Positions 12,651 through 24,306 of a stretch of 52,391 nt of DNA are shown here, in pieces; the stretch's first letter is position 1; each line of letters begins with the position of its first letter. The translations under genes were made by a program, and so were the position numbers. The stretch is from Prevotella sp. (lineage in GTDB: Bacteria; Bacteroidota; Bacteroidia; Bacteroidales; Bacteroidaceae): NCBI GenBank assembly GCA_017458005.1, contig JAFTGH010000026.1:1-52391 (forward strand), written 5' to 3'. The notes beneath the pieces are model-generated. The model made no database searches. It worked only from the letters and a program-made list of their open reading frames with translations, and had not been told where the DNA came from.

Positions 12651-14690
12651 ATGAAAATTAAAGGAGTATTTATGATGATGTTATTATCATCGATGTCGAT
12701 AGCCACGATGGCGCAGTCGACACTGAGGTCGGGAATCGATCTGACGGACCTCAACCCACAGGTACAGCCTGGTGAGGACTTCTATGGTTACGCCTGTGGC
12801 GGTTGGATGGCAAAGAACCCGTTGCCTGCCGCCTACTCACGCTATGGCAGTTTCGACCGTCTTGCCGAGGACAACAACAAGCGTATCAACGGTATTCTGA
12901 AGGAGTTGCAGGAGAAAACCTACCCACAGGGTAGTGTGGAGCAGAAACTGAGCGACCTGTATAAACTCGCTATGGACTCGGCTCGCCGTGAGCAAGACGG
13001 ACTGGCTCCCGTGATGGGGCTCATCAAGAAGATGGAGGCGGCAAAGACCGTTGCCCAACTTTTTGACATCCAGTTGGAGATGATGCCCTATGGCGACTCG
13101 GAGTTCTTCCATGCCTATATCGGCGCCGACGACAAGAATGCCACCCAGAATATCCTGAGTGTCAATCAGGGAGGACTTGCCCTGGGGCAGAAAGACTACT
13201 ATCTGGAGAACGATGAGGCTACTACGAAGATCCGCGAGAGTTACAAGAAGCACATCGTCCGTATGTTCCAACTCTTTGGCTTCAAGAAGGCTGCCGCTGA
13301 GAAGAAGATGAAGAACATCTTCGCCTTGGAACTCGCGTTGGCAAAGGTGTCGAAGTCACGTACGGAGTTGCGTGACCCCATTGCCAACTATAACAAGATG
13401 ACGTTGAGCGAGTTTGACAGCAAATACCCCCACTTCCAGTTGGAGAGGCAGATGAACGCCAAGGGCATCGCAAGCCAGTATATCCAGGAGATGATTGTCG
13501 GACAGCCAGACTTTATGGCGGGTGCCGACCAACTTTTCGGTAAGATCACCCCCGCAGAGTACCGTGATTATATGGAGTGGGGTGTTATCCGCTCTGCCGC
13601 CGGCTATCTGAATGACGAGGTGCGCGCCGCTAACTTTGACTTCTTCGGCAAGGTGATGTCTGGCAGGAAAGAGGACCATCCCCTCTGGCGCCGTGCCACC
13701 AATCAGGTGCAAGGTGTGATGGGCGAGGCACTGGGTAAGATCTATGTGGAGAAATATTTCCCCGCCTCGTCAAAAGAGCGTATGAAGACTTTGGTGGAGA
13801 ACCTCCGTATTGCTCTTGGTGAGCGTATCGCGGCACAGGACTGGATGGACGACTCTACGAAGGTAAACGCCCTGTTGAAGTTGAATACCTTCTACGTGAA
13901 GATTGGTTATCCTGACCGTTGGACGGATATGAGCGACTTGAAGATTGATGCGAAAAAATCTTACTATGATAATATGCAGGAGTGCAGTCGCTTCTGGAAT
14001 CAATGGCGCATCAACCACACGGCAGGCAAACCTGTCGACCGTGATGACTGGTATATGACTCCACAGACGGTGAACGCCTATTATAACCCAACGACCAACG
14101 AGATTTGTTTCCCTGCTGGTATTCTCCAAGTGCCTTTCTTCGATCCGACAGCCGACGATGCCTTTAACTATGGTGCTATCGGTGTAGTGATCGGTCATGA
14201 GATGACTCATGGTTTCGATGATCAGGGTCGTCGCTTTGACAAAGATGGAAACATGCACGACTGGTGGACGGAAGAGGATGGAAAAAACTTTACAGAGCGC
14301 ACAGACAAGTATGCTGATTTCTTCTCTGGTATCAAGGTGCTGCCTGATTTGAATGCCAACGGACGCTTGACATTGGGTGAGAACCTTGCTGACCACGGTG
14401 GTCTGCAGGTAGCATGGTATGCCTATAAGAATGCGACAAAGCGTGGTCCGCTACCTGTGATTGACGGGCTGACCGCTGACCAGCGCTTCTTCCTTGCCTA
14501 TGCAGGAGTATGGGCTGGCAATATCACTGAGGCGGAGATCCGCAACCGAACCAAGAGTGATCCGCACTCACTGGGTCGCTGGCGTGTCAACGGTGCCCTG
14601 CCACACATTGATATGTGGTATGAGGCGTTCGGTGTCAAGGAGGGCGACAAGATGTTTATTCCTAAGGAAAAACGCCTCTCTCTCTGGTAA
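12651..14690 (+). CDS. pepO: Secreted M13-family metallopeptidase (neprilysin/PepO-like)
   Basis: A 679-residue zinc endopeptidase. A signal peptide (MKIKGVFMMMLLSSMSIATMAQ) directs it out of the cytoplasm. The N-terminal M13 domain starts DLNPQVQPGEDFYGYACGGW. The catalytic domain shows VIGHEMTHGFDDQG (HExxH near residue 516-520), then ENLADHGGLQ (near 576), which supplies the third zinc ligand Glu and the following Asp. NAYYNPTTNEICFPAGIL precedes the zinc site, as in the family, and the end matches the conserved DPHSLGRWRVNGAL. Members cleave small and medium peptides. It starts 9 bp after the ABC-F stop, so read-through is possible, and a good terminator follows. Confidence 0.95.
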   Translation: MKIKGVFMMMLLSSMSIATMAQSTLRSGIDLTDLNPQVQPGEDFYGYACGGWMAKNPLPAAYSRYGSFDRLAEDNNKRINGILKELQEKTYPQGSVEQKLSDLYKLAMDSARREQDGLAPVMGLIKKMEAAKTVAQLFDIQLEMMPYGDSEFFHAYIGADDKNATQNILSVNQGGLALGQKDYYLENDEATTKIRESYKKHIVRMFQLFGFKKAAAEKKMKNIFALELALAKVSKSRTELRDPIANYNKMTLSEFDSKYPHFQLERQMNAKGIASQYIQEMIVGQPDFMAGADQLFGKITPAEYRDYMEWGVIRSAAGYLNDEVRAANFDFFGKVMSGRKEDHPLWRRATNQVQGVMGEALGKIYVEKYFPASSKERMKTLVENLRIALGERIAAQDWMDDSTKVNALLKLNTFYVKIGYPDRWTDMSDLKIDAKKSYYDNMQECSRFWNQWRINHTAGKPVDRDDWYMTPQTVNAYYNPTTNEICFPAGILQVPFFDPTADDAFNYGAIGVVIGHEMTHGFDDQGRRFDKDGNMHDWWTEEDGKNFTERTDKYADFFSGIKVLPDLNANGRLTLGENLADHGGLQVAWYAYKNATKRGPLPVIDGLTADQRFFLAYAGVWAGNITEAEIRNRTKSDPHSLGRWRVNGALPHIDMWYEAFGVKEGDKMFIPKEKRLSLW

Positions 14691-14715: not shown

Positions 14716-14748
14716 GCCGTCGTAAATATAAATTTACGGCGGTTTTTT
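14716..14748 (+). terminator. Terminator after the M13 peptidase gene
   Basis: GCCGTCGTAAAT pairs with ATTTACGGCGG (one G-U pair) around a short loop, followed by six T. Confidence 0.8.
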
Positions 14749-14770
14749 GTTTGTTTTAAAAATTTATTGC

Positions 14771-14778
14771 TATATTTG
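14771..14778 (+). promoter_or_regulatory. -7 box of the kinase cassette
   Basis: TATATTTG followed by CA, 27 bp before the ATG at 14806. It follows directly on the M13 terminator, so the cassette begins a new transcription unit. No clear second promoter is seen until 27131. Confidence 0.6.
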
Positions 14779-14805: not shown

Positions 14806-15756
14806 ATGACAAGCGATAATTCCCTTAATACTGAGAAAACCGAGAGGACCATACGCCCCCAGGAAATTGTTCGTGAGAAGGAGCGCATTCGGGAGGATGA
14901 ACCCCTTCAGCCAGCGATGCAGCAACAGCAGCAACAACAGCAGGCTGGAGGAAAGAAATGTCCCTTCTGCGGAGCAATCAACGACCCGGAGGCGATGTTC
15001 TGTGCCCAGTGCGGACAGCCTATCAGCAAGTCATCCTGTCCCTTCTGCGGTGCTGAGGTAGACCCTGATGCCGATTTCTGTGAGACGTGCCATCATTACA
15101 TCCGCAAGGATATCTGTTCCTATTGCGGTGCCCATCTGACGGGTAATGAGGCGTATTGCCCTGAGTGTGGTAGTCCCCGTGGCGGACTGGTGTGTCCCAC
15201 CTGTCATACCATGAATGACTTTGCCTTCTGTAAGCAGTGTGGTACTGCGCTGACTGCCGAGGCAAAGGAACTGGTGAAAGAGTTGCAGAAGAATCCCGAC
15301 TATAAGGAGTTGATGGATGTCGTGCAGGAGTATTCCCGCCTGGAGAGTTCCCTTCCCTATAATTCTGAGCGTGATATCGTCAGGGAGCAGATGAACATGA
15401 AGTTGCGTGAGCGTCTGTTGACCCTGTTGGCGAAAGACGCAGGGGTGGAGAACCCCGTGATTCCGAAGGTGAATACCAAGCGTATGACGAAAGAGGAGTT
15501 GGAGGAGCAGAAGTCGGAGAAGATCAAGACGCTCTCTGCCATCCTCGATAAGTTGGCGGTTCCCCCCACATCCTCTCCGGTGCAAGCCCGCAACTATGCG
15601 ATGGCAAGCAAGCCGATGGGTGTCCGTCTTGCCTGGGTGTGTAACTTCAAGCATGCGCTGCACAGCAGTCCCTGTGGCTGCGCCAAACCTCACCTCGGCG
15701 GAAAATGGGTAGTGTTAGGGAAGAATAGTACTGCGGAAATTAAAGACGATAAATAA
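14806..15756 (+). CDS. Protein with four zinc ribbons and a Cys-rich C-terminal motif
   Basis: A 316-residue protein of unknown function. The N-terminal 50 residues are charged, with a Gln run (38-46). Four zinc ribbons follow with CxxC pairs at 52/55 and 66/69, 78/81 and 92/95, 104/107 and 118/121, 130/133 and 142/145. A helical, charged section (150-255) leads to a C-terminal motif, MGVRLAWVCNFKHAL then SPCGCAKPHLGGKWVVL, with three more Cys that could bind metal or nucleic acid. No catalytic residues and no membrane segment are seen. The stop codon overlaps the kinase start by one base (TAATG), which implies translational coupling. It is probably an adaptor or scaffold for the kinase cassette; that is inference from position. 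Confidence 0.8.
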   Translation: MTSDNSLNTEKTERTIRPQEIVREKERIREDEPLQPAMQQQQQQQQAGGKKCPFCGAINDPEAMFCAQCGQPISKSSCPFCGAEVDPDADFCETCHHYIRKDICSYCGAHLTGNEAYCPECGSPRGGLVCPTCHTMNDFAFCKQCGTALTAEAKELVKELQKNPDYKELMDVVQEYSRLESSLPYNSERDIVREQMNMKLRERLLTLLAKDAGVENPVIPKVNTKRMTKEELEEQKSEKIKTLSAILDKLAVPPTSSPVQARNYAMASKPMGVRLAWVCNFKHALHSSPCGCAKPHLGGKWVVLGKNSTAEIKDDK

Positions 15757-18707
15757 TGGATCAGACCATAAGAAACGTTCAAGGGCAAGAAAGCAAGACC
15801 ATGAGAGTGGCACCCCAGGCGGGTGTCGGGGAGAAGACCTTCGTCCCAGGTAGTGTCAGAGAGTCTGCCCAGACGAATGCTGCTGGCGATTTTATCATCA
15901 AAGGAAAAGTATATCATAACCTCAAATGCCTGAGCGACAATTCGGGTGAGGCACAAGTGTTTTTGGTAGAGTGTGACCAGAAAGAGATGGTCCTGAAAAT
16001 CTACTATCCGAATTTCTCTATCAAGAAGACGTTGTTGCGTATCGTCCAGAGTTTCGGCATGGAGACCATCGTGAAGATATACGACTATGGCAAGACTTAT
16101 GTGGACGGCAAGAACCGTGACTATGAGTTGATGGAGTATCTGCGGGGTGGTACGTTGAGTGAGTACGACCTGGACGGTGACTTCAACCAGTTCCGCCGTA
16201 TCGCCTTACAGGCTGCCGCCGCTCTTGCCTATTGCCATAACAGTAATATCATCCATAAGGATATCAAGCCTGGTAACTTCTTCTTCCGTGATGAGAGCCA
16301 TCAGGAAGTGGTGCTGGGCGATTTCGGTATATCCAGTGTGCTGGAGGGTGATGAGCGAGTGCATAGGACCACCCAGGCTCGTACCCCGGTATATGCCGCG
16401 CCAGAGATGTATAACGATGTGATTGACGGTGAGGTGGAGATCACTCCCTCGGTCGACTTCTATTCTCTGGGTATTACCTTGATGACGCTCTGGCTGGGTG
16501 AGAACCCGTTGAGTCAGAACGAGCGTGTGATGATGCGTAAGAAGAACGAGGGTCGTCTGCCTCGTATCAACGATCTCCCTGACCGTGTGAAGATGCTCAT
16601 CCAAGGTCTCACCGCCGTTAATCCTCAGAACCGCTGGAAATACGAGCAGGTGGAGCGTTGGTTCCTTGGCGAGGATGTCGAGGTGGATATCTCGTCACCG
16701 ATTCTGAAGTACCGTAGTTTCATCGTTGACCCGGAGAAGAACCTCGTTGCCGACAATGTTCACGAATTGGTACCCTTGTTGTTGGATAACGAGCGTCTTG
16801 CCATCAGTTACCTCTATAACGGCAGGATAGCCGGTTGGTTGGAGCAGTGTGGTAATGTAAAACTAAGTTCTGCCGTCAAGGATATCGTCGTCAACCGTTA
16901 TCCTGCTGACCAGCATGCGGGACTGATGGCTGCCATCTATGCCATGGAGCCCACCTATCCGTATGTCGACCTGCATGGTAATCATTGTGATGACATTCAT
17001 AGTGTCAGCATCTCCGTATTGAGTTATCAAGAGGAGTATGCCATTGCCTTACGTAACCCAAATGACACGCTATTCCTTTATATAGAGTCGCATTCAAAGG
17101 CAGATGCCAACCGCCTCCGTAGTTATTTCTCAGAGAAGGAGTTCGACGGGCGTGTCGCTGTATTACGACTCGTCTATGAGATAGATAAAGAGATACCGTT
17201 CTTGAACCAGTATCCTTCCTCAACGCTTCAGGAGATTGTACGCTCCTTCGGCTATGAGGACTGCCCCGAGGACGCATGGATGTCACTCAGTGACGGGCGA
17301 CTCCTGTCATGGATGTACTGTCATGAGGACCGTATGGCATGTGAGGCGTTGCGCATCCTGACTAACGGTCAGAAGCCCTCACGCTCCTTAGGCTATAAGG
17401 TGCTGTACAATATCGACCGTGACGCAGCCTTCGACTTACAGGAGGCTGACACTCCCTATCGTGTGGGTGTGCTGCTCGGGCAACTGATGCAGGAGTGGCA
17501 GCATCTCCCGGAGAAGGAGTTCAACGAGCAGATCAAGGACTTCTCCGACGCGAACGGTCGTTTCGCTTACTTTGCCCAGTTGCACGGATGGTTCGAGCAA
17601 CTGAACCAGGCACGTGCTTGCTTCGACATGAAGAGTGCGGAGAACACGGAGCGTTTGGGGGTCTACGACATGCGGACGGCAGCCTATCGCTTCTGTCGTA
17701 TCTTGGGAGCGCGTCCTTCCTATCTGCTGGACGACGGTCTGGAACTGACAGACGGACTTACTATAGAGCAACTCGGACATCGTCCTGAGATGGTCAAGGA
17801 ATTGAAACGCGGTTCCTTGAGCCAGTGGCTCTCTATTTTCTTCCACGAGAATCCCGAGACGGATTTCAGCGAGACCTATTCCTATGAGCGCAGTCTGGAG
17901 CGATGGATACTGACCCTTGGCGAGATAGATTCCAACCAGCCCTATTTCAAGCGTTTCGGAAATGCCAAGGAGGAGACAGCCTCGAAATACAGGGATGTGC
18001 GCCAGCGTTTCTATCGGGCGAAGAGCAAGGAGAAGACATGGCGAATGGTGTTCTACTCTCTTTGTGGTGTCTGGGCGTTATTCCTGCTTCTCTTCGGAGT
18101 CAGCGGACGTGACTACCTCTTGGATCATGCGGGTATTTCTATCGTGCTTCCTCTTGGTGGTATGACGGCTATTATTATAGGTACTAGGGCCTTTTTCAAG
18201 GGCTATGGCTTCGTCCTGTCCTGTCTGTGGGGACTGCTGGGAGTTCTCTCCTCTTATATCCCCGTGATGATACTGAGGTATGTCAATAGTTCCTCGCCGA
18301 GTTTCTTCATTCCCGCTATCATCTTGATGACGCTGGTATATATGGCTATCTGTCATTTCACAGACTTCCGTGCCGATACTAACAGCGAGAACCTGTTGAT
18401 ATCGGAGGTGATGGACGATGATGTCAAGTCGACCCTGCTGGAGCCGCTCTATTATACTTTCAAGGAAAGGAAGTTCAAGTTCAAGGGTTCTAACTTCGGC
18501 TTGCTCGATGATGTGACCAATCAGGTGCGCTCATTGAGTGGAGAGTCAGTCCTACATTATATATTATGGTCGGCACTGGTAGGACTCTTGTTGATGGAGT
18601 TGATTATCTTCAGCCCCAAACTGTTGAATGTGGGCAACCCTAATCTGGATAGTTGGAAGTTGAAACCGGCGGCAGTGGTTAAACAATTACAAAAGGACGT
18701 GGAGTAA
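15756..18707 (+). CDS. Membrane-anchored Hanks-type Ser/Thr protein kinase
   Basis: A 983-residue protein. The kinase domain (about 48-310) follows a Thr-containing tail of about 45 residues. Visible: VLKIYYP with the ATP Lys81, HKDIKPGN with catalytic Asp169 (HKD rather than HRD), DFGIS with Asp189, TRTPVYAAPE-like activation segment (RTPVYAAPE, Glu217) and VDFYSLGITL. The glycine loop is poor (LSDNSGEAQVFLVE). A large middle region (about 330-755) of helical character has no family I recognise. The C terminus holds four close hydrophobic segments (about 762-780, 790-810, 815-840, 848-866) and one more near 930-950, so the kinase is probably held at the inner membrane. Its neighbours are a zinc-ribbon protein before it and an AAA+ protein 1 bp after it. 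Confidence 0.9.
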   Translation: MDQTIRNVQGQESKTMRVAPQAGVGEKTFVPGSVRESAQTNAAGDFIIKGKVYHNLKCLSDNSGEAQVFLVECDQKEMVLKIYYPNFSIKKTLLRIVQSFGMETIVKIYDYGKTYVDGKNRDYELMEYLRGGTLSEYDLDGDFNQFRRIALQAAAALAYCHNSNIIHKDIKPGNFFFRDESHQEVVLGDFGISSVLEGDERVHRTTQARTPVYAAPEMYNDVIDGEVEITPSVDFYSLGITLMTLWLGENPLSQNERVMMRKKNEGRLPRINDLPDRVKMLIQGLTAVNPQNRWKYEQVERWFLGEDVEVDISSPILKYRSFIVDPEKNLVADNVHELVPLLLDNERLAISYLYNGRIAGWLEQCGNVKLSSAVKDIVVNRYPADQHAGLMAAIYAMEPTYPYVDLHGNHCDDIHSVSISVLSYQEEYAIALRNPNDTLFLYIESHSKADANRLRSYFSEKEFDGRVAVLRLVYEIDKEIPFLNQYPSSTLQEIVRSFGYEDCPEDAWMSLSDGRLLSWMYCHEDRMACEALRILTNGQKPSRSLGYKVLYNIDRDAAFDLQEADTPYRVGVLLGQLMQEWQHLPEKEFNEQIKDFSDANGRFAYFAQLHGWFEQLNQARACFDMKSAENTERLGVYDMRTAAYRFCRILGARPSYLLDDGLELTDGLTIEQLGHRPEMVKELKRGSLSQWLSIFFHENPETDFSETYSYERSLERWILTLGEIDSNQPYFKRFGNAKEETASKYRDVRQRFYRAKSKEKTWRMVFYSLCGVWALFLLLFGVSGRDYLLDHAGISIVLPLGGMTAIIIGTRAFFKGYGFVLSCLWGLLGVLSSYIPVMILRYVNSSSPSFFIPAIILMTLVYMAICHFTDFRADTNSENLLISEVMDDDVKSTLLEPLYYTFKERKFKFKGSNFGLLDDVTNQVRSLSGESVLHYILWSALVGLLLMELIIFSPKLLNVGNPNLDSWKLKPAAVVKQLQKDVE

Positions 18708-18708
18708 T

Positions 18709-21700
18709 ATGGTTTGTGAGAATTGTCATAAAGAAAACCGCTCGATAGCGAAGTTCTGTAAGTGGTGTGGTAAGCCGCTTATCTCACAGAACGTACTCGA
18801 CCAGTTGGTGGGTCTTGATGATGTCAAGAAACAACTCAAGACGGTAGTCGACACCTATACTTATCTCCATTCCCGCAAGGACATCATGAAGGTGCGTCTG
18901 AGCGTGAATGCTATTATCATTGGTGAGACAGGTACGGGTAAGACGGCACTTGCGGAGATTATCCGAGACTATTTCTACCAGCATAAGATTATCGACAAGC
19001 CGAAGTTGACGATGGTGGACGCCGTTGACTACCAGCGTTTTGTCGATAAGTGGGACGATAATATCAAGAAGGCGAAGGATGGTATCCTCTTCTTCGATAA
19101 TGTGCAGAAACTGTTGCCTGATCGCTATTCCAATCAGGTGAACCCCCTCGACAAGTTATTCGTCGAGATGGACAAATGGGACGATAACCCCATCGTCATC
19201 ATCTCCGGTCTGCCTAAAGGCTTGGACGACTTCCTCACCAACAACCCCGCCGCGCAGAACCGCTTCAAGTATATCTTCCGTCTGCCGACTCCCGGCTATG
19301 CCGAACTATGTGAGGTCTGCAAGCAGGAGTTGCGGATGAAGTACGGCATTGCCGCCTATACGCCAGAGGCAGAGCATAAGTTGGAGCGGTACTTCCAGTA
19401 TCAAGTGAAGATCAAGGACGATTCCTTTGGCTATTGTCATCTTGCCGTGAAGACCGCGGAGGATATCTTCACTTCTTTTATCAGCAGAGGTGCTGAGGCA
19501 ACGATGATAGAGGAGAGCGACATCCGTGGCTATGTGCCAGAGGAGCGCACTTTGGATGATATCCTGAGCGACCTCGACCAGTATATAGGAATGGACGAGG
19601 TGAAGAAGGCTGTCCGTGAGATCGCCTACTCGGTACAGAATAGTGTACAGCGTGCCCAGCGCGGACTCGGTGAGCAGCAGAAGGCTGGCATCCATATCGT
19701 CTTGACGGGTAATCCCGGTACAGGTAAGACGACTATCGCCCGTAAGTTGGGTGAGATACTTGAGGCTATCGGTTACCTTGATAGCGGACATGTGGTAGAG
19801 TGTGACCGTGCTAAGATGGTGAGCCCCTATCAGGGTGAGACCCCAAAGGTTGTCGACCGTTTGTGCGACAAGGCGATGGGCGGAATCCTCTTTGTAGATG
19901 AGGCTTATACCTTGGCTCCTGTCAGCCAGGGCGGAGACCGTGACAATCAAGGTGCACAGGCTCTGGAGCAGTTGATGAAGCGCATGGAGGACGACCGCGG
20001 TAAGTTTGTGGTCATCGCCGCCGGCTATCGTACGGAGATGGAGAACCTGTTCCGCATCAACCCAGGTGTGCGCAGCCGTTTCAGTTATTTCCTGAATATC
20101 GACGACTACAATCCCGAGGAACTGTATCAGATCATGCAAGTCTTCGCCAAGTCGAAGAAATATGTCTTTGCTCCTGATGCGGAGGAGTTGGCTCGGAAGA
20201 TGATCACCGAGTTATACGACTCCCGTGACAAGGACTTCGCCAATGGACGTACCATGCGCCAGTTGTTCGACAAGATCACGGCAAAGCAGGCGGAGCGTCT
20301 GCAGAAGGAGGATATGTCGACGAAGACCAACGAGGAGTTGATGACCATCATACAGGAGGATATCCCCTACGAGGCTCCGAAGGCTGTCGACTATACGGAA
20401 TGTCTGGAGAAACTCAACGGCATGGTGGGCTTGGCCGCTGTCAAGCAGGAGATCTCCAACCTCGCCGCCTTCCTCAACCTGCAGATACGCCGTGGCGAGA
20501 CCAACACGTTCCAAGGCAAGCATTATGTCTTTACGGGTAATCCTGGTACGGGTAAGACGACGGTCGCCCGCATCATGGCTGATGTGTTCCGCACTCTTGG
20601 CATCCTCTCCAGAGGGCAGTTGGTGGAGGCAGACCGTAGCAAACTCGTCTCTGGCTACTCAGGACAGACTGCTATCAAGACGAACCAGTTGATCGACTCG
20701 GCGATGGGTGGCGTGCTGTTTATTGACGAGGCATATACCCTGAAGTCCAGTGATCAGGACTCCTTCGGTAGTGAGGCTATCGACACGTTGCTGAAGCGAC
20801 TGGAGGACGACCGTGGTAAGTTCATCTGTATCGTGGCAGGTTATACCGATCAGATGCACGACTTTATCGACACGAACCCAGGACTGAAGAGTCGTTTCAC
20901 GCAGACCATTCACTTCGATGACTATACGCCAGATGAGTTGACTCAGATCTTCGTCAACCTCGCTAAGGGCAAGAACTTCACAGTGGATGATACCACCCGT
21001 GATGCGGTACATCGCCAGTTCGAGCAGTTGTACCTGCGTCGTGACAAGAACTTTGGTAATGCCCGTGAGGCACGTCGTATCTTCGACGCAGCCGTTGAGA
21101 AACAGAGTCAGCGTCTGATGGCGGAGGTGAACAATCCCGACTTCAAGGACGAGGATATGTATCGCATCACGGAGGCAGACCTTGCCGTACAGCAGAGCGA
21201 GAAGGTTCGTCCGTTGGACGAGGTCCTCAACGAACTCGACGAGTTTATCGGTATGCGCTCTGTTAAGAATATGATCCGCCGCCTCGCCGTACAGAGCATG
21301 TTCATGAAACAGCGTGCCGCGATGGGTGCTGGTAAGGTGCAGCAGATGGCGATGAACTTCATCCTGACGGGTAATCCGGGAACCGGTAAGACCTCGATAG
21401 CCCGAAAGATGGGTGAGGTGTTACAGAGTATGGAGATCCTGCCTACCAGCCGTGTCATCGAGGCTAGTCGTGCGACACTGGTCGGTAAGTATATGGGTGA
21501 GACACCGAAGATTGTCAATAACATGTGCGACAAGGCGATGGGTGGTATCCTCTTCATCGACGAGGCATATACCCTGTCGTCGGAGAACGACCAGTATGGC
21601 AAGGAGGCAATCGATACGCTGATGAAGCGCATGGAGGATGACCGTGGTAAGTTCGTGGTCATTGCCGCAGGCTACCAGAAGGAGATGGAGGACTTCATGA

Positions 21701-22026
21701 ATGTCAACCCAGGTCTTGCCAGTCGTTTTACGCATAAGATGCATATCGAGGACTATAACGAGGATGAGTTGTTGGCGATCTACAAGAAGATGGCCGCAAA
21801 GGACAACTACACGTTATCGCCTGCGGCAGAGTTCAAACTCATGGATCTTATCTGTCGTAAGGTGGTCAGCAAGAGCGACTCGTTCGGTAATGCCCGTGAG
21901 ATGCGTAACATGCTTGATGAAACAATCCAGCAGTTGTCTGTCCGTGTCAGTGCCCTGCCTCAAAATGAGGTGACGCAGGAGACCTATCAGATGATACTGC
22001 CAGAAGATATAAAGGATGAGTTATGA
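18709..22026 (+). CDS. Zinc-ribbon protein with four CbbX/SpoVK-like AAA+ modules
   Basis: A 1105-residue protein. An N-terminal zinc ribbon (C3, C6, C17, C20) is followed by four AAA+ modules of the CbbX/SpoVK/EccA class. Walker A sites: GETGTGKT (72-79), GNPGTGKT (334-341), GNPGTGKT (610-617), GNPGTGKT (888-895). Walker B: ILFFDN (126-131), ILFVDEAYT (393-401), VLFIDEAYT (669-677), ILFIDEAYT (947-955). Module 1 has DN where the others have DE, so it may bind but not hydrolyse ATP. Modules 2-4 share RMEDDRGKFVVIAAGY-type strands, pore-side and arginine-finger regions (PGVRSRF, PGLKSRF, PGLASRF). Members remodel proteins as rings. Four modules in one chain is unusual. It begins 1 bp after the kinase stop and overlaps the next gene by 4 bp. 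Confidence 0.92.
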   Translation: MVCENCHKENRSIAKFCKWCGKPLISQNVLDQLVGLDDVKKQLKTVVDTYTYLHSRKDIMKVRLSVNAIIIGETGTGKTALAEIIRDYFYQHKIIDKPKLTMVDAVDYQRFVDKWDDNIKKAKDGILFFDNVQKLLPDRYSNQVNPLDKLFVEMDKWDDNPIVIISGLPKGLDDFLTNNPAAQNRFKYIFRLPTPGYAELCEVCKQELRMKYGIAAYTPEAEHKLERYFQYQVKIKDDSFGYCHLAVKTAEDIFTSFISRGAEATMIEESDIRGYVPEERTLDDILSDLDQYIGMDEVKKAVREIAYSVQNSVQRAQRGLGEQQKAGIHIVLTGNPGTGKTTIARKLGEILEAIGYLDSGHVVECDRAKMVSPYQGETPKVVDRLCDKAMGGILFVDEAYTLAPVSQGGDRDNQGAQALEQLMKRMEDDRGKFVVIAAGYRTEMENLFRINPGVRSRFSYFLNIDDYNPEELYQIMQVFAKSKKYVFAPDAEELARKMITELYDSRDKDFANGRTMRQLFDKITAKQAERLQKEDMSTKTNEELMTIIQEDIPYEAPKAVDYTECLEKLNGMVGLAAVKQEISNLAAFLNLQIRRGETNTFQGKHYVFTGNPGTGKTTVARIMADVFRTLGILSRGQLVEADRSKLVSGYSGQTAIKTNQLIDSAMGGVLFIDEAYTLKSSDQDSFGSEAIDTLLKRLEDDRGKFICIVAGYTDQMHDFIDTNPGLKSRFTQTIHFDDYTPDELTQIFVNLAKGKNFTVDDTTRDAVHRQFEQLYLRRDKNFGNAREARRIFDAAVEKQSQRLMAEVNNPDFKDEDMYRITEADLAVQQSEKVRPLDEVLNELDEFIGMRSVKNMIRRLAVQSMFMKQRAAMGAGKVQQMAMNFILTGNPGTGKTSIARKMGEVLQSMEILPTSRVIEASRATLVGKYMGETPKIVNNMCDKAMGGILFIDEAYTLSSENDQYGKEAIDTLMKRMEDDRGKFVVIAAGYQKEMEDFMNVNPGLASRFTHKMHIEDYNEDELLAIYKKMAAKDNYTLSPAAEFKLMDLICRKVVSKSDSFGNAREMRNMLDETIQQLSVRVSALPQNEVTQETYQMILPEDIKDEL

Positions 22027-22595
22027 TAATATGTCCAAGTTGTAAAGAAGAGATAGAGGAGCAATCCCCTTATTGTGACCAGTGTGGTCAACAGTTGCAG
22101 TATTGCTCCAATTGTGGTCGTGTGGGTACTGGGCGACGCTGTACGCACTGTGGCGGTCTGATGGCTGCCCCCGGAGAGGAGCAACAGCCCAGTCTGACGG
22201 CATCACATGCATCGGCAGAGGAAATCAGTCGTACATTTGCTACGGAGCGTGAGCGAAATCAGGCGATAGCACCTCCCGATGTCCAGATACAGGGTGTTCC
22301 TACGCTGACACTATATAACCCCTCGTTGAATATCCGCATCGTAGGAATCAATGGCGCTATTATCGGGCGCAAGCAGGGTCCTTACCAGCAATTGTTCGAA
22401 GGTAATATGTATGTGTCGAGTGTCCACGCCCAGTTGATCTACAAGCCGGACTCAGGCTGGTGTATCATTGATAAGCATTCGTCTAATGGAACGAAACTCA
22501 ACGAGCGTGACTTACTGCCAGATATCCCGATGTCCATCAATAGTGGAGACATTGTCTCACTGGCAAATATCAACTTGCAGGTGACCGTCAACTAA
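22023..22595 (+). CDS. Double zinc-ribbon protein with FHA domain
   Basis: A 190-residue protein. The N-terminal 45 residues have eight Cys in four CxxC pairs (4/7, 18/21, 28/31, 40/43). A linker leads to a forkhead-associated domain (about 95-188), which binds phosphothreonine. Core residues are seen: IGR near 120, SSVHAQL with Ser and His of the FHA core, and SSNGTKLN with the NGT motif. The gene overlaps the AAA+ gene by 4 bp (ATGA). It is the likely phospho-reader for the kinase two genes upstream, and the zinc ribbons might pair it with the other ribbon proteins of the cassette; both are inferences from context. Confidence 0.9.
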   Translation: MIICPSCKEEIEEQSPYCDQCGQQLQYCSNCGRVGTGRRCTHCGGLMAAPGEEQQPSLTASHASAEEISRTFATERERNQAIAPPDVQIQGVPTLTLYNPSLNIRIVGINGAIIGRKQGPYQQLFEGNMYVSSVHAQLIYKPDSGWCIIDKHSSNGTKLNERDLLPDIPMSINSGDIVSLANINLQVTVN

Positions 22596-22632
22596 GGTTC
22601 CTGAGTATAATTAAGATAGTATTGATAATAAT

Positions 22633-23379
22633 ATGAGTAGAATAGTCTTAACGGCAGCAAGCCGTGTGGGATGTGTGAGAAGTAATAATGAGGACATGGT
22701 GCTTGCCTACGACAAGTTTGTGCGTGGCGAGGCATATCATACAGAGTTTATGACAGAGAACTCCGACCGTTTTGTCATTGCCTTGGCTGACGGAATGGGC
22801 GGTCATAAGGCTGGTGAGGTGGCTAGTGCCGACGCGCTTGCCAATCTGCAGTTCTTCCTGAATGACTTGCCCAAGGGACTCTCTATCAGTGAGTTCAATG
22901 AGATGATTGTGGTATGGCTCGACTCTGTCAATAAGATGATCGCGTCGAAAGGCTATGTGGATCCCAGTCTGTCAGAGATGGGCACCACGCTCGTGGCGGT
23001 AGCCTATTATGAGGGAAAATACTATTGGATGAACTGTGGTGACAGTCGTCTGTACCGTCTGCGTGACGGGAAGATGAAGCAGTTGTCGACAGACCATTCG
23101 CTGAATACCCTCAAGGGTGAGAAACGCCATTCTAATGTGATTACCAATTGTATTGGCGCAGGATGCAAGAACTCCTTCATCGACCTCTATGAGTTTACGG
23201 ATGATTTCCTCACTGGTGATGTCTATATGCTCTGTTCCGACGGTTTGACGGATATGGTGAATGACGAGGAGATAGAGGAGTTGCTTGCAGGAGGTGCCTC
23301 AGCCAACCGACTTTGTGAGGTCGCCATTGAGGCTGGCGGTTATGATAATGTCTCTGTATGTGTGTTTTCTGTAATGTAA
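22633..23379 (+). CDS. PP2C-family Ser/Thr phosphatase
   Basis: A 248-residue single-domain protein phosphatase, metal dependent. Motifs in order: VGCVRSNNEDM (Glu20, Asp21), ADGMGGHKAGE (Asp53, Gly54 metal site), MGTTLVAV, CGDSRLYRLRDG, TDHS, CSDGLTDMVNDEE (metal Asp) and GGYDNVSV. All main PP2C metal-binding positions seem present. No membrane segment or signal peptide, so it is cytosolic. It probably reverses phosphorylation by the kinase of the same operon. It lies 37 bp after the FHA gene and 9 bp before metA. Confidence 0.93.
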   Translation: MSRIVLTAASRVGCVRSNNEDMVLAYDKFVRGEAYHTEFMTENSDRFVIALADGMGGHKAGEVASADALANLQFFLNDLPKGLSISEFNEMIVVWLDSVNKMIASKGYVDPSLSEMGTTLVAVAYYEGKYYWMNCGDSRLYRLRDGKMKQLSTDHSLNTLKGEKRHSNVITNCIGAGCKNSFIDLYEFTDDFLTGDVYMLCSDGLTDMVNDEEIEELLAGGASANRLCEVAIEAGGYDNVSVCVFSVM

Positions 23380-23388
23380 GTTGCGCGT

Positions 23389-24306
23389 ATGCCATTAAGA
23401 TTACCAGATAGATTACCCGCCATAGACCTGTTGAAGCAGGAGAACATCTTTGTGATGGATGACTCCCGTGCCCACATGCAGGATATCCGCCCGCTGAAGA
23501 TTGTCATTCTCAATCTCATGCCGTTGAAGATTACGACGGAGACTGACCTCATCCGCTTGTTGTCGAACACCCCCTTGCAGTTGGAGATCAGTTTCATGAA
23601 ATTGCGTAGTCATACGCCGAAGAACACCCCAATAGAGCACATGATGATGTTTTACCGTGACTTTGCGCAGATGCGCTATGAGAAGTTTGACGGTATGATT
23701 ATCACAGGTGCTCCTGTCGAGACCCTCGACTTCGAGGACGTGAAATACTGGGACGAGATGATGGAGATCTTTACTTGGTCGCGTACGCACGTGACGAGTA
23801 CCTTATATATATGTTGGTCGGCGCAAGCGGGACTCTATTATCACTATGGCATTCCCAAGTATCCGTTGGAGAAGAAGATGTTTGGTATCTTCCCACAGGA
23901 TATCCTGCAACCTCAACAACCCATCTTCCGTGGCTTCGACGATATGTTCCACATGCCGCATAGTCGCCATACCGAGATACACAGGGAGGATGTCCTTGCC
24001 AATCGGGAGTTGACACTGCTTGCCGAGTCGCCTGACAGCGGCGTGAGCATCGTGATGGCGCGTGGCGGTCGTGAGTTCTTTGTCACGGGTCATCTGGAGT
24101 ATGCGCCAGACACCCTCGACAACGAGTATAAGCGTGACAAGGATATCCGTGATGATGTGGACCTTCCCAAGAATTACTATCGTGATAATGACCCCGCTAA
24201 AGGACCATTGGTGACGTGGCGTGCCCATGCCAATCTGTTCTATAGCAACTGGATCAACTATTACGTATATCAAGAGACACCTTACGATATCAGCCAGATA
24301 CGATGA
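23389..24306 (+). CDS. metA: Homoserine O-acyltransferase MetA, probably acetyl-specific
   Basis: A 305-residue MetA, the first committed step of methionine synthesis: acylation of homoserine on oxygen. Visible residues: nucleophile Cys142 (YICWSAQ), His235 and Glu237 (FVTGHLEY). Residue 111 is Glu (ITGAPVET), which in studied MetA proteins goes with acetyl-CoA use; Gly111 enzymes use succinyl-CoA. The product is therefore probably O-acetylhomoserine. The length fits the family. It sits between a phosphatase gene and a U32 peptidase gene, overlapping the latter by 4 bp (ATGA), with no other methionine gene nearby. Confidence 0.95.
   Translation: MPLRLPDRLPAIDLLKQENIFVMDDSRAHMQDIRPLKIVILNLMPLKITTETDLIRLLSNTPLQLEISFMKLRSHTPKNTPIEHMMMFYRDFAQMRYEKFDGMIITGAPVETLDFEDVKYWDEMMEIFTWSRTHVTSTLYICWSAQAGLYYHYGIPKYPLEKKMFGIFPQDILQPQQPIFRGFDDMFHMPHSRHTEIHREDVLANRELTLLAESPDSGVSIVMARGGREFFVTGHLEYAPDTLDNEYKRDKDIRDDVDLPKNYYRDNDPAKGPLVTWRAHANLFYSNWINYYVYQETPYDISQIR

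Follow-up and report, generated by a model that had tools for sequence, protein, structure and literature searches.

Do five adjacent genes of a Prevotella sp. belong together, and what would they do as a set? The question is raised by positions 14806-23379 of contig JAFTGH010000026.1 (assembly GCA_017458005.1), of which a stretch of 52,391 nt, referred to here as the window, was examined. Five open reading frames (ORFs), all on the + strand, encode in order a zinc-ribbon protein (gene 1), a Hanks-type membrane Ser/Thr kinase (gene 2), a zinc-ribbon AAA+ protein (gene 3), a zinc-ribbon/FHA adaptor (gene 4) and a PP2C phosphatase (gene 5) (Table 1). An original prediction had described them as a phospho-signalling cassette. 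The ORF list and Pfam bear out its positions and domains, and the short spacing of 1-37 bp is also as described, the junctions being in order a 1-bp overlap, a 1-bp gap, a 4-bp overlap and a 37-bp gap. Comparison of genomes demonstrates that the five genes, which Prevotella-type gut bacteria carry, form one evolutionary unit, usually kept or lost whole. On balance, we favour reading them from their sequences as a probably co-transcribed, phospho-regulated chaperone module, in which the kinase tail would serve as a dock, the AAA+ protein would be recruited and PP2C would reset the system.

The AAA+ protein was scanned against one genome per species, and the best 80 of 200 relatives, all titled Prevotella, Prevotellaceae or Bacteroidales, were taken as loci. 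Together with loci from whole-genome searches they gave a set of 97 loci (the window, L005-L094, L101, L102 and L104-L107), each of which was reached via the AAA+ gene or the kinase; L001-L004 and 11 further loci (L095-L100, L103, L108-L111) were left out. A gene was regarded as present if it gave a tblastn match, and L015 was counted as complete though its kinase consists of two ORFs. The linkage recurs well outside the window: of the 97 loci, all of which have the zinc-ribbon AAA+ gene, 89 carry the complete set with order and strand unchanged. Five loci are incomplete due to contig ends (L058, L084, L091, L102, L105), and in the genome of the last of these, G410, the front half of the cassette lies on a separate contig (L165). 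Divergent loci, whose proteins share 24-43% identity with those of the window, also keep the five-gene order next to different neighbour genes. For the divergent cassettes L092, L094, L101, L104, L106 and L107, the neighbours of the window were not found or other genes flank the cassette, which indicates that the set is kept regardless of context. In the 11 fetched loci that were left out, the AAA+ relatives lack the zinc ribbon, and no further gene of the cassette is present.

Co-occurrence of the genes leads to the same conclusion. Among 247 genomes of the phylum, the gene 1 profile (E<=1e-15), the kinase profile (E<=1e-50) and the AAA+ protein (E<1e-250) select the same five genomes, the first two profiles having included rows from three of the four carriers of another class and none from G410. 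Since four of the five carriers belong to another class, the cassette is not a peculiarity of Bacteroidales but spans beyond this order, and the label of a Bacteroidales form was too narrow. Weaker AAA+ relatives (E 1e-132 to 1e-144) occur in six further genomes of the 247; no cassette stands beside the genes for the proteins of approximately 1300 aa at L108 and L111, which are such weaker relatives, or at L109 and L110, which are paralogues in carriers. In the order sample, the kinase is present at E<=1e-30 in three of 197 genomes (the genome of the window, G161 and G168) and always adjoins the AAA+ gene. The kinase tree contains three groups, the Prevotella type, other Bacteroidales and the other class, with an insecure root and an unsupported base.

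Gain and loss of the cassette can be followed at its chromosomal site. In the window it lies between an M13 peptidase gene (12651-14690) and metA, encoding homoserine O-succinyltransferase (23389-24306), which is followed by a U32 peptidase gene. The AAA+ ortholog is present in 17 of 80 genomes of the genus, that of the window included, and in all 17 metA is located 1.3-1.4 kb from it on the same contig. Twelve of the 151 genomes of the family sample are carriers by AAA+ matches, nine of the window type and three divergent (G015, G048, G067). None of the five genes was seen in 12 metA regions (6-11 kb) from non-carriers. In five of these regions the M13 peptidase gene is found 119-258 bp from metA (L118, L119, L120, L122, L123), in three other genes lie between the two (L113, L114, L117), and the other four have a different neighbourhood or a stretch that does not include the peptidase gene. 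A chance neighbourhood is ruled out by the conserved order, the co-occurrence and the empty sites.

The single promoter at the front of the cassette that had been proposed agrees with the distribution of promoter boxes. The prediction in Table 1 follows what we take to be the Bacteroidetes promoter consensus, and an alternative first box is present at 14746-14749. Gene 1 was called in 91 loci; in 80 of them TAnnTTTG occurs in the 140 bp before this gene, or within its first 60 bp, and in 68 a first box is also present. The same element precedes genes 2, 3, 4 and 5 in only 0/96, 2/97, 1/94 and 4/89 cases. It was found in 15 of 480 coding control segments, a contrast which partly reflects composition, as the region preceding gene 1 is non-coding. 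Among the divergent loci examined, the two-box promoter was not seen at L061, L092, L101, L104, L106 and L107. The five genes are probably co-transcribed. The metA gene starts 9 bp after the PP2C gene and may be read through from the cassette promoter.

In the gene 2 product, the kinase domain (residues ~47-305) is followed by a helical region (~335-725) and by five transmembrane-like segments within 764-953; K81, D169, K171, N174, D189 and E217 are kept in the aligned family. The predicted model has a pTM of 0.47 and its listed best matches are almost all protein kinases; structural matches gave no assignment for the helical region. Residues 1-42 have a pLDDT below 50 and contain the predicted phosphothreonine (pThr) tags of Table 1, among which T28 is invariant and T15 nearly invariant in 47 aligned kinases. 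Tails were counted in 92 of 96 kinase ORFs, the fragments L015, L058, L060 and L084 having no tail, with the first ATG, GTG or TTG of each frame as the start. The motif [DE]xT[IVLMF][RK] occurs 153 times in the 92 tails against a shuffled mean of 1.9 (maximum 9), and the shorter T-[IVLMF]-[RK] 233 times against 13.4 (maximum 27). The longer motif is likewise in excess in 37 thinned, dissimilar kinases (60 versus 0.9 shuffled, maximum 5), and outside the tails of the same kinases it falls below the shuffled value (10 versus 17.2). At T-hydrophobic-[RK] sites, D or E takes 65% of positions at -2, R 91% at +2 and P 44% at +3. The tail sequence drifts fast and its repeat number varies up to seven, while the motif persists; DKTL is repeated seven times in the tail of L101, and six such repeats are found in that of L165.

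Within the cassette, the N-terminal tails of gene 1 products are also enriched in T-hydrophobic-[RK] (49 versus 7.5 shuffled, maximum 17), and one copy of the tail motif stands at the C-terminus of the FHA protein in L104-L107. The full-length AAA+, PP2C and FHA sequences show little or no enrichment. Elsewhere in the genome of the window, [DE]xT-hydrophobic-[RK] is absent from the three proteins examined of the four other Pkinase proteins. In the four other-class genomes, genome-wide counts of [DE]KTIR were 17, 13, 17 and 17 against 19, 18, 15 and 32 for the reversed control; only G560 exceeds its control (17 versus 15) and the other three lie below. Since the counts overall do not exceed the reversed control, no substrate set can be named. 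In three of these four genomes, the cassette kinase is the only place where the strict DNA pattern clusters; the tail of G560 has V in place of I.

Conservation extends to the reader and the eraser. In 18 aligned FHA sequences G115, R116, S132, H135 and G156 are invariant and N155 nearly so; these six are presumably the pThr-binding residues. D53, D137, D203 and D238, which we take to bind metal, are invariant in 17 aligned PP2C sequences. By these alignments, the kinase, FHA and PP2C domains, together with AAA modules 2-4 (see below), retain their key residues. FHA domains bind pThr and not phosphoserine. They have been described as highly specific for pThr (PMC3953482). A preference for threonine alone is what would be expected of an FHA reader, and in the tail motif serine replaces threonine only three times against 153 threonines, while the reversed motif does not occur at all. 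Because the pThr-binding residues are kept and the motif nearly excludes serine, the tail is regarded as a putative FHA dock, and the FHA adaptor is probably built to grip its threonine tags. Binding of the FHA domain to the kinase N-terminal tail had been suggested in the original prediction, and the tail motif gives this idea strong indirect support. The tail could instead be an autoregulatory substrate, its phosphorylated form inhibiting or activating the kinase, or the AAA+ protein clamping and remodelling the kinase. The position of the tail in cis to the kinase would suit such a role. We nevertheless consider it decidedly unlikely: the near exclusion of serine points to a pThr-specific reader, and the copies at the FHA C-terminus and the enrichment in the N-terminus of gene 1 products place the motif outside the kinase as well.

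The AAA+ protein had been described as carrying four CbbX-like modules. Four are indeed present in the window protein, with AAA matched by Pfam in four stretches and AAA_lid_6 in three, but module 1, although its Walker A motif is intact, is degenerate, having DN in its Walker B motif and no pore loop. DN or EN in place of DE is found in module 1 of 90 of the 91 four-module relatives, one being unparsed. Lacking the catalytic Walker B glutamate, module 1 is predicted not to hydrolyse ATP. Four is also the commonest number of modules but not a fixed one: Walker A motifs number four in 91 of the 97 proteins, five in L106 and L107, three in L093 and L094, six in L105 and one in L102, a 493-aa ORF which stops 44 bp short of the end of its contig. 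A zinc ribbon read from the sequence (CENC...CKWC) is present in all 97. The protein exceeds the cut-offs of the NCBIfam families for SpoVK, EccA and CbbX (TIGR02881, 782.6 with a cut-off of 422.95; TIGR03922, 707.5 with 466.65; TIGR02880, 624.5 with 459.25), scores which sum over four modules and thus do not choose among the three. The closest solved chains are EccA1 (9lur, the best score) and CbbX (3syk, 3zuh). The CbbX/SpoVK/EccA clade is marked by a GY signature in sensor-1 and by an Asn four residues upstream of the first Arg finger (PMC10659427). The first is present here, as modules 2-4 read AAGY, VAGY and AAGY at sensor-1, where module 1 reads SGL. The NPGxxSRF motif of modules 2-4 has an Asn before the Arg, which may or may not be the counterpart of the second.

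Modules 2-4 share their motifs with the clade, from which the cassette protein differs by its three to six tandem modules behind a zinc ribbon, by its degenerate first module and by being encoded with a kinase, an FHA protein and a PP2C. Figure 3A of PMC10659427 presents operons and its legend names a zinc-binding domain; it is possible that this operon is depicted there. The tandem arrangement of CbbX-type modules is in itself probably no novelty: the AAA+ protein is matched in two pieces, over ~550 residues, by Streptomyces plasmid proteins that carry a beta-helix annotation. The other-class genomes contain, at L108-L111, multi-module CbbX-like proteins of ~1300 aa with three Walker A motifs. 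The window's own genome also encodes a 357-aa protein (L098 10380-11453; G000:C11) whose N-terminus has a hydrophobic segment and whose only CbbX-like module shares 48% identity with module 3 of the cassette AAA+ protein. Proteins with three to six modules and a conserved dead first module form a natural series for the study of concatenated AAA+ assembly.

We propose that the membrane kinase, on sensing a signal via its helical or membrane part, would phosphorylate its own disordered N-terminal tail at several threonines ([DE]-x-T-hydrophobic-R-[P/V]), acting either in cis or on a neighbouring kinase. Once phosphorylated, the tail would offer the FHA domain of the adaptor a multivalent dock. 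Zinc ribbons are common to the adaptor, the four-ribbon protein encoded by gene 1 and the AAA+ protein, and they may gather the tandem CbbX-like ATPase at the membrane. Characterised members of the clade are chaperones for dedicated, narrow clients (PMC10659427). Like CbbX, SpoVK and EccA, modules 2-4 could act there on a single dedicated client, remodelling or activating it, while module 1 would bind nucleotide without hydrolysing it or have a structural role. Dephosphorylation of the tail by PP2C would release the assembly. The gene 1 product has at its C-terminus (15634-15708) the motif W-x-C-N-x5-H-x2-P-x2-C-x2-P-x2-GG-x-W, which does not vary among 17 aligned sequences that represent two classes. 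No Pfam match covers this motif, and the AlphaFold model of the protein found no significant match in the PDB (best E 0.55).

Several observations weigh against this mechanism. PP2C is absent despite sufficient room in three cassettes (L060, L086, L090), the first of which is additionally cut at the gene 1 end. The kinase alphaC Glu is not recognisable across the family, so that activity is assumed, and a sequence comparison of kinase residues 301-983 with solved structures gave nothing significant (best E 0.99); neither a client nor a sensor was found. In the tail, the T28 site of the window kinase is an imperfect copy without Arg, T-hydrophobic-[RK] is absent in seven of the 92 tails (L083, L087, L088, L089, L093, L094, L102; L093 and L094 carry a different repeat), and that of L061 repeats DKTIV instead. 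The FHA linkers are not enriched in the motif (3 versus 4.0). The range of three to six AAA modules does not fit a single fixed ring geometry, and recruitment of the AAA+ protein through zinc ribbons is purely inferred. More specifically, and more tentatively, the cassette could be a phosphorylation-gated, membrane-docked remodeller in which a multi-copy pThr tag in the tail of the writer binds FHA and zinc-ribbon adaptors many-to-many and a concatenated CbbX-type ATPase of three to six modules, one of which is hydrolysis-dead, is switched on for one client, a version to which we give somewhat less than even chances. Such many-to-many binding may perhaps take the form of a condensate. Condensates of the membrane kinase PpkA recruit Fha in one Acidovorax type VI secretion system (T6SS; PMC12607579), a precedent for multivalent clustering. 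If this version is true, writer, reader and eraser would directly control a bacterial AAA+ chaperone, and the writer itself would bear the tag.

An anti-phage or conflict system is an unlikely alternative, in which the kinase and the AAA+ protein would sense infection and shut the cell down and PP2C would be the off-switch, comparable to KKP, MADS and TerY-P. The kinase domain matches PADLOC mad6 (1.1e-36) and the AAA+ protein IetA (2.3e-28), yet these matches span only the kinase or AAA cores, and the scores for MAD6 (NF047741, 78.1 bits with a cut-off of 460) and IteA (83 with 510) lie far below threshold, so the kinase is not assigned to MADS. The patchy presence in the genus with clean empty sites, and the SUKH or DUF1963 genes, presumably encoding immunity-like proteins, in or beside the cassette in L106, L107 and L101 would be in line with defence. 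SpoVK-family AAA+ proteins and Ser/Thr kinase/PP2C pairs co-occur in some CoCoNuT systems (PMC11090510). Against defence speak the fixed chromosomal place by metA in all 17 genus carriers and the lack of a nuclease or other recognised effector among the five proteins by Pfam. At E<=1e-10 the kinase has no match among phage records, and at E<=1e-15 it matches a single plasmid kinase, from a different cassette; on this search with the kinase, the other four proteins not being used, a mobile or phage origin was rejected. None of the viral contigs contains the five genes. One 2.2-kb contig (L124) has a cassette-like kinase piece (58%), and the others contain unrelated kinases and kinase/PP2C groups.

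Post-translational control of a secretion system, in the manner of the T6SS threonine phosphorylation pathway or of type VII EccA, appears very improbable. The kinase/FHA/PP2C logic is that of PpkA-Fha-PppA (PMC3953482), and the AAA+ protein lies within the EccA clade, with EccA1 as its best-scoring solved chain. Control of a T6SS was nonetheless rejected: VipB/TssC (PF05943) has no match in the genome of the window, whose assembly is 92% complete, while the E. coli control was matched. No secretion genes were present among the neighbour proteins examined, no search having been aimed at WXG100/EssC. Together with the lack of VWA and Ter domain matches in the cassette and in 18 selected neighbour proteins of divergent cassettes, this upholds the view that the cassette is not accompanied by secretion, VWA or Ter genes.

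The cassette is, in our view, a new variant of kinase-FHA-phosphatase signalling. The original prediction did not recognise it as described, and we likewise found no description of the five-gene set in the literature, figures and most subscription journals lying outside the coverage. In the T6SS pathway, PpkA phosphorylates a membrane protein, whose pThr is bound by Fha (PMC3953482). PpkA-Fha-PppA and the cassette have in common a membrane Hanks kinase, an FHA protein that reads, or in the cassette is predicted to read, pThr on a membrane protein, and a PP2C eraser; the cassette differs in having no T6SS found, repeated tags in the kinase's own tail, zinc ribbons on three proteins and a tandem CbbX-like AAA+ protein in the operon. 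TerY-P, including CoCoNuT forms with SpoVK-type ATPase extensions, resembles it in Ser/Thr kinase, PP2C and zinc ribbon, and sometimes has a tandem SpoVK-family ATPase nearby (PMC11090510). Unlike TerY-P, the cassette has an FHA protein, no VWA domain in its five proteins by Pfam or in the 18 selected neighbour proteins of divergent cassettes, and a kinase which ends in membrane helices rather than in a fused C-terminal zinc ribbon; the McrBC and helicase/nuclease partners of CoCoNuT TerY-P are also absent. KKP combines Ser/Thr kinases and PP2C with involvement of FHA, but is organised as a PP2C followed by two short kinases and reported in prophages (PMC11341870), whereas the cassette has a single 983-aa membrane kinase, five genes and a chromosomal site. 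PP2C-kinase-kinase rows are present in viral contigs without other cassette genes. In the archaeal ArnA/ArnB/ArnC/PP2A switch, an FHA protein is likewise placed under a kinase and a phosphatase, its phosphorylation-driven oligomers being built by the kinase and undone by the phosphatase; this system is archaeal and has a VWA partner and no AAA+ machine (PMC7472852). Finally, the Aristaeella lactis plasmid NZ_CP069422.1 (L164, 5457-23319), from a rumen Clostridia host, carries Ser/Thr kinase, FHA, AAA+ and PP2C genes in a row, but with a ClpX/Cdc48-type AAA_2, a second kinase and a DUF4011 protein; the cassette profiles match neither its AAA+ nor its FHA protein.

Table 1. Positions of the cassette genes, their parts and the preceding signals in the window
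Feature	Position	Strand	Remarks
Terminator-like hairpin with a subsequent T run, separating the M13 peptidase gene from the cassette	14716..14743	+	12 pairs; consensus match
Predicted Bacteroidetes-type promoter: TTTG 14750-14753, N17, TATATTTG 14771-14778	14750..14778	+	consensus match
Gene 1, zinc-ribbon protein, 316 aa	14806..15756	+	several zinc ribbons (DZR and others, Pfam), helical region
Gene 2, Hanks-type membrane Ser/Thr kinase, 983 aa	15756..18707	+	Pkinase 2e-31 (Pfam)
Disordered N-terminal tail of the kinase with predicted phosphothreonine tags T4 (DQTIRN), T15 (SKTMRV), T28 (EKTFVP)	15756..15881	+	
Gene 3, zinc ribbon + four-module AAA+ protein, 1105 aa	18709..22026	+	CbbX/SpoVK/EccA clade
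AAA module 1, residues 27-288	18787..19572	+	Walker A GETGTGKT, Walker B GILFFDN, no pore-loop motif
AAA modules 2-4, residues 289-1105	19573..22023	+	GNPGTGKT, DEAY, Y-x-G-[EQ]-T pore-loop-like, Arg finger NPGxxSRF
Gene 4, zinc-ribbon + FHA adaptor, 190 aa	22023..22595	+	FHA 6.8e-11 (Pfam)
Gene 5, PP2C phosphatase, 248 aa	22633..23379	+	PP2C_2 6.5e-12 (Pfam)

Ser/Thr phospho-signalling in Bacteroidota seems to have been little studied. The cassette offers a compact, genetically separable system with writer, reader, eraser and ATP-driven machine in one operon, and the contact predicted between writer and reader, being a single short motif, lends itself to tests with synthetic peptides. The immunity-like genes of the divergent cassettes, SUKH (SMI1/KNR4) inside or just after the cassette and DUF1963 after PP2C, are located at L106 5289-6083, L107 10445-10966 and L101 18931-19575. 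The cassette is not the only phospho-system of its genome, which contains five Pkinase and seven FHA matches. A second phospho-signalling island of the same genome (L167 6048-17864; G000:C50, ~86-98 kb), without the tail motif, encodes in order an FHA protein, a Ser/Thr kinase, a PP2C, a further FHA protein, a double-FHA/trypsin-like peptidase, an unknown protein, an FHA protein, a PP2C, a Ser/Thr kinase and a WG-repeat protein.

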